NCBI GenBank assembly: GCA_029548365.1
Contig: JAKPNN010000015.1
Span: 1-56,332 of the forward strand
Direction: 5' to 3'
Length of the DNA: 56,332 bases
Source of the DNA: Chloroflexota bacterium
Lineage (GTDB): Bacteria; Chloroflexota; Anaerolineae; Anaerolineales; Anaerolineaceae
Shown here: in pieces, positions 3,052 to 5,444 of the stretch
Layout of the letters: each line of letters begins with the position of its first letter
Numbering within the stretch: position 1 is the first letter of the stretch
Notes under the pieces: model-generated
What the model was told of the DNA's origin: nothing
The model's input: only the letters and a program-made list of their open reading frames with translations
The model's database searches: none
Program-made: the position numbers and the translations under genes

Positions 3052-3156
3052 AACCATTCTGGCGGTTGCGTCGGATCACACAGGTGTTTTCGGTTTTTTG
3101 GGGGTGGTGAGTGGTGAATAGTGAATGGGCGTTGAGTAGACCGGGGTTGGCATCGA

Positions 3157-3488
3157 TAATCCCATCGTAGGGGCGGACCTCCATGTCCGCCCAGGGCAGG
3201 CACAGCTCGATACCCTTGCAGGGCACAGGGAGTGCTACGCGAAGACCTGCCCCTACGGGTGACTGGCAAATTAATGCATCTGCGGATGATCGATCAATCC
3301 GGCGGTTAACCCTGTTTTGAACCATAAAGGACGCAAAGAACACGAAGTTTGTCATTGCGAGCTTACGGCGCGAACTCATGTTTCCACCAGAGATTGCTTC
3401 TCTCCGCTGCGCTCCGATCGCAATGACAACGCGTTTGTATGTCATCGCGAGCTTGCGAAGCGATCTCGGTTTTTGGCGATGCACCCGA
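3157..3488 (+). repeat. REP-like bipartite repeat, unit 1
   Basis: The unit has two modules. The first, GC-rich, carries nested inverted repeats: outer arms CGTAGGGGC and GCCCCTACG, inner arms GGGCGGAC and GTCCGCCC. The second carries a 10-base inverted repeat, GTCATTGCGA at 3351-3360 and TCGCAATGAC at 3418-3427, followed by GTCATCGCGAGCTTGCGAAG. The same order is repeated nearly base for base downstream, showing a true unit of about 330-370 bases. It lies just upstream of the restriction gene. Confidence 0.85.
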
Positions 3489-3862
3489 AATAGATAATCC
3501 CATCGTAGGGGCGGACTTCCACGTCCGCCCAGGGCAACCACGGAGGGTTGCCCCTACGGATGGCCGGGGCAGGCACAGCTCGATACCCTTGCAGGGCACA
3601 GGGAGTGCTGCGCGAAGGGTTGCCCCTACGGGTGACCGGCAAATCAATACCTCTGGGGATGATCAATTAATCCGGCGGTTAACCCTGTTTTGAACCACAA
3701 AAGACGCAAAGAACACGAAGTTTGTCATTGCGAACATACAGCGCGATCTCATGTTTCCACCAGAGATTGCTTCTCTCCGCTGCGCTCCGATCGCAATGAC
3801 AACGCGTTTGTATGTCATCGCGAGCTTGCGAAGCGATCTCGGTTTTTGGTGATGCACCCGAA
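3489..3862 (+). repeat. REP-like bipartite repeat, unit 2
   Basis: A near-identical direct copy of unit 1, with a slightly longer GC-rich module (an additional piece around 3535-3570 that duplicates the pyrimidine-rich arm). The AT-richer spacer, including the stretch beginning AATCCGGCGGTTAACCCTG, is also kept, so the whole unit was duplicated and not just the palindromes. Confidence 0.85.
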
Positions 3863-3945
3863 ATAGATAATCCCATCGTAGGGGCGGACCTCCATGTCCG
3901 CCCAGGGCAACCACGAAGGGTTGCCCCCACGGGGGATCAATATAA
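3863..3945 (+). repeat. REP-like repeat, partial unit 3
   Basis: Only the GC-rich module is present, ending about 20 bases before the transposase start codon. It lies in the same reading frame as the transposase and reads through without a stop, so it could be translated if an upstream start (for example the ATG at 3812) were used. Confidence 0.75.
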
Positions 3946-3967: not shown

Positions 3968-4594
3968 ATGAACGCGACCAATCGACCCCTGTCCAATCGC
4001 AAAAACCCGCGTCTACCCGGGTATGATTATGCCCAAGCCGGGGCGTATTTCATCACTGTCGTCACCCAGGGGCGCGTCCCCCTGTTTGGTGAGGTTGCAA
4101 ATGGTGAAATGCACCTTAATCCCGCCGGGGAGATGGTGGTGTGGGTGTGTGAGGAAATGCCAAATTATATTCCGGGCATGGAATGGGGCATTTATCAGGT
4201 CATGCCGAATCATTTTCATGGGGTTATTGAATTGCACATTGGCGATGCACCCAAATCAAATAATCCCATTGTAGGGGCGGACTTCCATGTCCGCCCAGGG
4301 CAACCACGAAGGGTTGCCCCCACGGGTGGCCGACAAATCAATACCTCTGCGGATGATAAATCAATCCGGCGGTTAACATTGGGCAATATCGTGGGACGTT
4401 TCAAATCTCTGACGACGCGGCGCTATCTCGATGGTGTCCATGCCGACAATTGGCAGCCACTTCCAACCCACCTGTGGCAGCGCAATTACTACGAACACAT
4501 CATTCGTGATGACCAGGATTACCAATCCATTTTCGATTATATCCTCGCTAACCCCCAAAATTGGGAGCAGGACCGGGAACACCCATCAAGATAA
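3968..4594 (+). CDS. REP-associated tyrosine transposase (RAYT), Y1/HUH family, with an embedded repeat
   Basis: The 208-residue protein has the family hallmarks: an N-terminal GYDYAQAGAYFITV strand, the HUH metal-binding motif PNHFHG (His82, His84), and a C-terminal helix with WQRNYYEHIIR, where Tyr174 or Tyr175 is the expected DNA-cleaving residue. RAYT proteins are single-strand endonucleases linked to REP palindromes, matching the repeat cluster on both sides. Residues about 92-136 are not family sequence but an in-frame copy of the neighbouring repeat (bases 4241-4375). The ATG at 3968 was chosen because homology starts there. An ATG at 3812 in the same frame would add 52 residues encoded by repeat DNA. 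HUH and tyrosine motifs are intact, so the enzyme may still be active, but this is unproven. Confidence 0.88.
   Translation: MNATNRPLSNRKNPRLPGYDYAQAGAYFITVVTQGRVPLFGEVANGEMHLNPAGEMVVWVCEEMPNYIPGMEWGIYQVMPNHFHGVIELHIGDAPKSNNPIVGADFHVRPGQPRRVAPTGGRQINTSADDKSIRRLTLGNIVGRFKSLTTRRYLDGVHADNWQPLPTHLWQRNYYEHIIRDDQDYQSIFDYILANPQNWEQDREHPSR
4241..4375 (+). repeat. REP-like repeat copy inside the transposase gene
   Basis: 135 bases (exactly 45 codons) match the GC-rich module and adjoining spacer of the flanking units, from the GGCGATGCACCC edge to the TCCGGCGGTTAAC edge. It lies between the HUH motif and the tyrosine helix. It keeps the reading frame and contains no stop in that frame. Confidence 0.85.
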
Positions 4595-4609: not shown

Positions 4610-5015
4610 TGGGCACCGGGGTTGACATCGATAATCCCATCGTAGGGGCGGACTTCCATGTCCGCCCAAGGCAACCACGGCTCGATACCCTTGCAGGGCA
4701 CAGGGAGTGCTGCGCGAAGGGTTGCCCCTACAGGTAACCGGCAAATCAATACCTCTGCGGATGATCAATTAATCCGGTAGTTAACCCTGTTTTGAACCAC
4801 AAAGGACGCAAAGAACACGAAGTTTGTCATTGCGAGCTTACGGCGCGATCTCATGTTTCCACCAGAGATTGCTTCTCTCTGCTGCGCTACGATCGCAATG
4901 ACAACGCGTTTGTTTGTCATCGCGAGCTTGCGAAGCGATCTCGGTTTTTAGTGATGCACCCGAAATAGATAACCCCATCGTAGGGGCGGACTTCCACGTC
5001 CGCCCAGGGCAGGTA
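4610..5015 (+). repeat. REP-like bipartite repeat, units 5 and 6 (last one partial)
   Basis: A full unit, with the GC-rich module at 4633-4735 and the CATTGCGA palindrome module at 4826-4945, is followed by the start of another GC-rich module at 4970-5012 that stops before the CsoR-like gene. Several point differences from units 1 and 2 show that the copies are diverging. Confidence 0.85.
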
Positions 5016-5096
5016 CCGCTCAGACTTTGGGATATCATTCGATCGGGGTAAAATAAGGTCTGGTAAGCGGAAAAATAATTAAGCCAAACACGGTGA

Positions 5097-5444
5097 ATGC
5101 AGATGAACAATCACTCTGATAATCGAGGAACAAGCCCACACCATGATCATGATCATGATCATGCGCAGCATGTCTATGTCCACAGCCAGGCTGAAAAAAA
5201 AGCGGTGATCAATCGCCTTTCGAAGGCTGTGGGTCATATTGAGGCGATCAAGCGCATGGTAGAAAACGATGCCGATTGCAGCCAGATCCTGATCCAGCTT
5301 GCTGCGGTGAAAGCGGCGATCAATAACACAGGAAACCTTGTGTTGAAGAATCACATCAGCCACTGCATTGTCCAGGCAGCCAAAGAGGGGAATGAGAAGG
5401 CGATCAGCGACCTGAACACCGCTATTGATCGGTTTATTAAATAA
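5097..5444 (+). CDS. CsoR/FrmR-family metal-sensing repressor with His-rich N-terminus
   Basis: The 115-residue, all-helical protein belongs to the DUF156 family of metal- or formaldehyde-sensing repressors. The copper-type ligand set Cys61, His86, Cys90 is present with the CsoR spacing (25 and 4 residues), which favours Cu(I) over the His-rich set of RcnR. The N-terminal extension HHDHDHDHAQH (residues 15-25) is encoded by a run of ATGATC hexamers at about 5142-5166 and could hold extra metal. Two starts are possible, 5097 and 5103, and neither has a strong ribosome site. No copper ATPase or chaperone lies next to it, so its target is probably elsewhere or itself. It converges on the methyltransferase gene. 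Confidence 0.85.
   Translation: MQMNNHSDNRGTSPHHDHDHDHAQHVYVHSQAEKKAVINRLSKAVGHIEAIKRMVENDADCSQILIQLAAVKAAINNTGNLVLKNHISHCIVQAAKEGNEKAISDLNTAIDRFIK

Follow-up and report, generated by a model that had tools for sequence, protein, structure and literature searches.

The means by which REPs spread and remain linked to their transposases are not settled; a copy of the presumed substrate inside the enzyme's own reading frame, densest there and shared by many members of one phylum, gives a natural way to test them. The locus described here raises the question directly: how did a piece of the surrounding repeat come to be translated within the gene of a putative REP-associated tyrosine transposase (RAYT, or TnpAREP), and what accounts for its survival at that place? 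The gene lies on a contig of 56,332 nt from a Chloroflexota bacterium of the Anaerolineaceae (GCA_029548365.1, contig JAKPNN010000015.1), which is referred to as the window (contig C48 of genome G000; G, C and L mark our genomes, contigs and loci). The answer bears on a recurrent route from palindromic DNA to protein sequence at one fixed site.

The transposase gene

The gene and the two motifs of its presumed catalytic core are located as follows.

3968..4594, +: RAYT / TnpAREP (REP-associated tyrosine transposase), 208 aa, by sequence and fold match to 4er8, with a match to profile NF047646 below its cut-off
4208..4219, +: HUH motif N-H-F-H at residues 81-84; all 39 sequences of an alignment share N81, H82 and H84
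4538..4540, +: codon for Y191, presumed to be the catalytic tyrosine, within YILANP; Y191, N195 and P196 are likewise common to all 39 sequences

The RAYT identity proposed in a preliminary description of the locus is supported. The NCBIfam profile NF047646 matches the ORF with an E-value of 1.6e-17 and 63.7 bits, below the curated cut-off of 80, in two stretches split at the insert. A PDB sequence search returned E. coli TnpAREP (4er8; E 0.0037) as the sole match at E 0.01, and the same protein is the top fold match of an AlphaFold2 model (E 2e-6); a Pfam search of the protein gave no match. The HUH and single-tyrosine core and the RAYT fold are thus present, as judged from the invariant residues and the match between the model and 4er8. 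GTAG-footed REP hairpins flank the gene, with further copies across the genome. An in-frame ATG at 3812 is an alternative upstream start. A second RAYT was found in the same genome by profile search (C30:13952-14380).

Among the subclasses defined by Quentin et al. (2018; PMC6006769), subclass 2.4 is described by the motifs NH[IFV]H, WQ and YIxNNP, and subclass 2.5 by YI[VI]ANP with DH[LF]H. The protein carries NHFH and WQRN, corresponding to the first two motifs of subclass 2.4, and its tyrosine motif is YILANP rather than YIxNNP, one position off. As in subclass 2.4, the protein ends soon after the core (17 residues past Y191, with no conserved C-terminal extension), a variable insertion lies between beta3 and alpha-C (predicted loop 90-137, with lengths that differ among relatives), and a REP is present inside the gene without a break in frame. 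By its motifs and features, the ORF fits a TnpAREP of subclass 2.4 type, except for the one residue of the Y motif.

The repeat copy inside the gene

The insert and its core occupy the following positions.

4239..4378, +: repeat-derived insert, translated, approximately residues 91-137, between strand 82-89 and helix 138-160 (genome matches, junctions and AlphaFold2 model)
4271..4324, +: REP dimer reading VGADFHVRPGQPRRVAPT in frame, with a GTAG foot (4271-4274), hairpins (4275-4296 and 4298-4319) and a CCAC foot (4320-4323)

The preliminary description placed a 135-base copy of the surrounding repeat between the HUH motif and the tyrosine helix, read without a stop in the gene frame, and on both points it was correct. 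DNA 4240-4374 (135 nt) has 31 matches in its own genome, self included, of which 16 are on the window and contig C39. The best matches elsewhere are 90% over 93 nt and 92% over 87 nt, and the E-values of repeat matches (7e-31 and 3e-30) exclude chance. Homology between the gene and the surrounding repeat runs from about 4239 to 4378, and the insert, first given as residues 92-136, has the location claimed and corrected bounds of about 91-136.

The insert represents part of a composite unit that spans about 340-370 bp. The core of the insert, a REP dimer, has two 8-bp hairpins with GTAG at one end and CCAC at the other. As single-stranded DNA, this 54-nt core folds at -19.1 kcal/mol (z -6.2; 0/200 shuffles fold as well), so that its hairpins are not due to chance, and the fold of the whole 135 nt is less remarkable (z -2.0, with 9/200 shuffles as good). 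Two of the six frames of the 135 nt are free of stops, the gene frame among them, and five of six are open in the core. No cleavage or target-site signature was seen in the window junctions inspected by eye. Compared with three neighbouring copies in the window, the insert has 8 differing bases in codons for the same residue and 14 in changed codons; compared with a C39 copy, the numbers are 2 and 18. These differences are too few to speak to selection on the inserted peptide, and their direction is unlike that of a conserved peptide.

Copies around the gene and elsewhere in the genome

Repeat units on both sides of the gene are arranged as follows.

3135..3845, +: two composite repeat units upstream, 3135-3470 and 3473-3845 (repeat search of the window)
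3846..3945, +: upstream partial unit with a REP dimer at 3878-3931 (92% over 87 nt; sequence)
4610..5051, +: downstream composite unit (4610-4945) and a partial unit from 4948 (repeat search; sequence)

The downstream unit contains a long-form REP (4642-4731) that starts 48 nt past the RAYT stop. Upstream, the REP at 3878 precedes the in-gene REP by 393 nt, or 131 codons, and therefore shares its frame, as the preliminary description had noted. This agreement may be coincidental (odds of 1 in 3), and because aligned relatives start near 3968, the upstream copy is probably 5' untranslated. Variants CACGAAGG and CCCCCACG are common to the in-gene and 3878 copies and absent from the copies on C22 and C28, which points to local copying between the upstream and in-gene REPs. 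Similar 53-nt dimers with a CTAC foot are found on C22 (two), on C28 and at 3505 in the window, with variants on C39.

The two RAYT genes of the genome carry different loop REPs, the dimer in the window and GTAGGGGCACGGCATGCCGTGCCCCTAC at C30; the latter has two one-mismatch copies on C33. Beyond this genome, most of the composite unit is also present in another Chloroflexota MAG (L079, 4960-5260), where no RAYT was seen. The ORF 150 nt before that unit is one that we take to be an S-adenosylmethionine synthetase.

Dispersed REPs were counted at 22 copies in 19 regions of five genomes of the genus, and 17 of the 22 overlap no chosen ORF (ORFs of at least 80 aa, by a simple longest-first choice; one copy on C94 of G011 was missed by the pattern). 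The other five overlap four small ORFs (101-133 aa), three of which were tested and had no Pfam match. As a whole, this count is a weak test of whether dispersed REPs lie inside other genes. Pfam searches of eight ORFs from C39 and C22 identified one sigma factor, and searches of four further ORFs (three small ones overlapping dispersed REPs and one beside a REP on C39) gave no match.

Several other repeats were observed. A second palindromic repeat, of the GTCATTGCGAGC...GAAGCGATCTC type, is present at 3347-3467, 3720-3840 and 4822-4942 of the window. The composite units combine this palindrome with a ACCACAAAGGACGCAAAGAACACGAAG-like stretch and are mosaics built from several repeat families. 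Contig C19 of the same genome (65167-72060) has a separate REP cluster, in which the hairpin GTAGGGGCAGACCTCCGTGTCTGCC is present in seven exact copies and one with a mismatch, all on one strand within about 7 kb; the profile search found no RAYT on that contig. Just past the last repeat unit of the window, at 5097-5444 (+), is a gene for a metal-sensitive repressor family protein (PF02583) with a His-Asp-rich N-terminus.

The loop in related genes

We compared the corresponding region across 110 genes including that of the window (set 1), taken from genomes of the genus, family, order and class and from named loci. The number is that of the distinct motif matches (127) less 17 that lack the PNH motif; fetched places without a motif match are uncounted. 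The queries were the C-terminal part alone, the family profile, and the whole protein (one of six peptide patterns coming from the insert), and the first two therefore do not favour repeats in the loop.

REP-like DNA is concentrated in the loop, in counts that are not independent because the genes are related. Loop DNA matches the gene's own flanks in 35 of the 110 genes, as against 9 of 566 control pieces of those genes. Hairpins with a stem of at least 12 are present in 43/110 loops and in 2/220 control pieces, and a REP foot in 72/110 loops. Across 14,160 nt of loop DNA the two foot motifs were counted 70 and 88 times, as against 9 and 19 times in the 42,399 nt that make up the remainder of the genes. 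The reading VGA...APT recurs among the loops of relatives. Five of seven named loci from other phyla have a clean two-footed REP in the loop, namely those from Peregrinibacteria (L069 and L078), Paceibacterota (L073), Neomarinimicrobiota (L074) and Bacteroidales (L076); the Chitinophagaceae loop (L065) is REP-like with no hairpin listed, and the Clostridia locus (L077) had no motif match. Some loops have grown in tandem (L124 and L346). Locus L346 (G577:C3:796000-803700) has two adjoining RAYT genes, in both of which the loop has expanded through tandem VGAKN repeats, and the L124 loop has PPLPDE repeats. In G002 (C25:256-771), a relative of the C30 RAYT has a decayed loop REP and an intact REP about 30 nt downstream of the gene.

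The 45 residues are lacking in clade members L093, L096 and L112. Three other relatives (L092, L107 and L064) hold the 18-residue REP part in variants of their own, without the rest, and L064 has an extra half-repeat. Taken with the unit at L079, which has no RAYT, this indicates that the insert is not ancestral protein sequence, as the preliminary description had supposed in calling it an insertion. The genome matches and the loops of relatives thus rule out a spurious match and an ancestral sequence as explanations. The genome matches and the open frame likewise uphold its description as the gene's own repeat family inserted in frame.

The motif GTRGGGS falls in the three phases of the loops in the ratio 57:13:0, where 57 is the phase that reads GTR as a codon and 0 is the phase in which GTAG gives a TAG stop. 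This ratio bears only weakly on the alternative of a repeat that evolved to be compatible with coding: the GTAG foot stops one frame in three and leaves two that are usable. Orientation also varies. In the homologous loops of G012 (L106) and G013 (L113), the dimers are alike at 38/52 positions when one is reversed and at 26/52 when it is not, and both are open in the frame used. Thus, either strand is translatable, and at least one of the two dimers came from an insertion of its own or from an inversion. Genome G012 has two RAYT loops with two different REP families, one of which has seven like elements elsewhere in that genome.

In L102 (G011:C3), a longer, 72-nt form of the REP is in the loop and the parts before and after it are in different frames, whereas the relative L092 of G006 is open. 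A change of frame at a loop REP implies that survival, rather than any design, keeps the frame, and on these sequences the keeping of frame in other relatives is best read in the same way.

Exchange of N- and C-terminal halves by recombination at the loop REP was considered and rejected. Distances for the N-terminal half are correlated with those for the C-terminal half (Mantel r 0.62; the highest permuted value was 0.17), with one discordant pair among 84 genes.

Predicted structure of the loop

The AlphaFold2 model, run with an alignment of 39 sequences, has a confident core and a mean pLDDT of 83 overall. Residues 91-130 have pLDDT values of 47-58, the mean for residues 131-140 is 77, and no secondary structure is assigned at residues 90-137, between strand 82-89 and helix 138-160 (alpha-C). 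The repeat-derived stretch is thus predicted to be a disordered loop between the HUH strand (beta3) and alpha-C. The suggestion in the preliminary description that the protein tolerates an insertion in a loop is favoured by this model.

Hairpin density in the loop and its flanks

Hairpins were counted with a stem of at least 12 and at most one mismatch, taking each gene to begin 85 codons ahead of the HUH motif. In set 1 (110 loci) the loop has 44 hairpins in 13,830 nt (3.18/kb), compared with 1.11/kb in the first 150 nt past the stop, 0.94/kb in the 150 nt upstream and 0-0.28/kb farther out. The remainder of the gene has almost none (0 in 27,805 nt of the N part and 1 in 14,646 nt of the C part). 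Set 2 consists of 33 genes identified by motif from 37 loci (17 loci and 20 regions) in other classes of the phylum; one of its queries contained loop sequences and may slightly favour such loops. Here, the loop has 17 hairpins in 4,527 nt (3.76/kb), as against 0.61/kb on each side and 0-0.62/kb beyond, and the N and C parts have 0.12 and 0.22/kb. With a stem of 10, the loop has 4.70 compared with 1.97 and 1.69 in the flanks (set 1) and 5.30 compared with 1.01 and 2.42 (set 2). The loop is the richest stretch counted in both sets, with an excess over the flanks of about 3x (set 1) and 6x (set 2) at stem 12 and of 2.2-5.2x at stem 10.

Insertion and tolerance alone predict at most the density of the flanks, because two thirds of random insertions shift the frame. 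The density in the loop exceeds this expectation, and thus some further process is required: REPs would have to be targeted to the loop, retained there or lost faster from the flanks, and the counts do not discriminate among the three.

Origin and persistence of the in-gene repeat

We consider it reasonably probable that the gene is a RAYT of subclass 2.4 type whose loop received a 135-140 nt fragment of the composite repeat with its cognate GTAG dimer, through the spread of the repeat and its survival in the loop. The sequence, its frame and hairpins, its position in the loop, the local copies and the repeated occurrence at this site in relatives are observed; from these we propose that the enzyme (its activity being predicted), or single-strand copying or conversion at its hairpins, would spread REPs near its own gene. 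Copies that land in coding sequence would survive solely in the disordered loop. The survivors would be those read in a frame where the GTAG foot does not yield a TAG stop, with a total length that leaves the downstream half in frame. The loop may then be copied again, or be kept in step with the current REP family of the genome. Against this account stand the excess of REPs in the loop over the flanks, which pure tolerance does not predict, and the low divergence of the REP in L102 and L092 described below.

The excess in the loop is what an active process would account for, in which the in-gene REP is retained or targeted as a DNA or mRNA element, either a seed copy inseparable from the gene or a site for self-binding. 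We regard this as possible but rather unlikely. The loop densities given above favour it in both sets, although flank REPs may vanish by rearrangement or at contig breaks, and in set 2 some more distant stretches are at least as rich as the flanks. Divergence in L102 and L092 also speaks for retention: their REPs differ at 2/53 columns, both beside a 19-nt insertion, compared with 56/239 columns of the gene before the REP and 32/230 (14%) after it, the latter leaving out 12 unread bases (N). That loop copy is therefore not decaying. However, exact copies of its left hairpin are dispersed in both genomes (five elsewhere in G006 and four in G011), and thus selection is not separable from turnover or conversion. 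More broadly, the REP has diverged less than the gene in 51 of 57 related pairs with loop REPs of the same length (pairs that are not independent), and stem changes keep two-sided pairing in 102 cases and break it in 19 (among REPs chosen for having both feet), but many pairs may be separate insertions, which would also mimic two-sided changes. Against retention, the loop REP of L086 has decayed while an intact REP lies downstream, and the loops of L093, L096 and L112 show no REP.

In its most specific form, which we put forward tentatively and would not expect to hold, the in-gene REP could be a maintained seed (REP - first half - [REP] - second half - REP), with the loop as a cargo site that accepts either orientation and the peptide as a by-product. 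If this were true, neither movement of the gene nor loss of its flanks would part the enzyme from its substrate.

It is improbable that the gene is instead the source, from which the loop segment with its REP was copied out to seed the dispersed composite repeats. The 31 nt and 54 nt that flank the in-gene REP are indeed also present in dispersed units. However, only part of the unit of about 370 bp is within the gene, and BLASTN of both flanks (E 1e-3) against the other fetched loci matched L079 alone (3' flank) and no RAYT gene; the search is weak for the short 5' flank, for which the L079 copy was missed and recovered by a longer query.

Least probable is a function of the translated repeat in the protein, for example as an element that recognizes REPs: the peptide is near the catalytic core and the VGA...APT reading recurs, but the stretch is predicted to be unstructured and its sequence, length and reading frame differ among relatives, which goes against the preliminary proposal that a translated repeat aids recognition.

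Comparison with known systems

Insertion of a REP in frame within the transposase gene is already known for TnpAREP subclass 2.4 (Quentin et al., 2018; PMC6006769). This subclass takes in the 100 sequences of RAYT group 4 of Bertels, and in the account given there, insertion domains between beta3 and alpha-C are limited to subclasses 2.3 and 2.4 and inserted REPs to 2.4. The core idea of the preliminary description (its own repeat, in frame, in a tolerated loop) is therefore right and already published. What is new is a Chloroflexota member and an insert that is a fragment of a larger composite repeat. None of the titles and abstracts listed in literature searches, which left out subscription papers and supplementary files, addresses the density, phase or orientation points.

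The window RAYT shares with subclass 2.4, as described in PMC6006769, NHFH with WQ, a variable region between beta3 and alpha-C, a REP in frame between HuH and Y, and double-foot GT[AG]G...C[TC]AC REPs both flanking and inside the gene. It differs in having YILANP instead of YIxNNP and an insert that is a 135-nt piece of a composite unit. The distance from HuH to Y is 107-109 in the window protein, compared with the median of 88 reported for the subclass, and the host is from the Chloroflexota, whereas the hosts named in that source are Cyanobacteria, Bacteroidetes and various phyla.

A broader precedent is provided by intragenic GTAG and CGTC REPs and by the RPEs of Rickettsia (Di Nocera et al., 2013; PMC3733652), which are likewise palindromic tagged repeats translated in frame within protein-coding genes. 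The host genes described there are varied, whereas here the host is the repeat's own presumed transposase, repeatedly and at one site. Biochemistry exists for other groups (PMC8266576). With E. coli TnpAREP (4er8), the window protein has in common the fold, the HUH/Y core and a GTAG-footed hairpin, which is the substrate in E. coli and presumably the substrate here. The E. coli enzyme belongs to subclass 2.2, which according to PMC6006769 is without inserted REPs, unlike the RAYT of the window.
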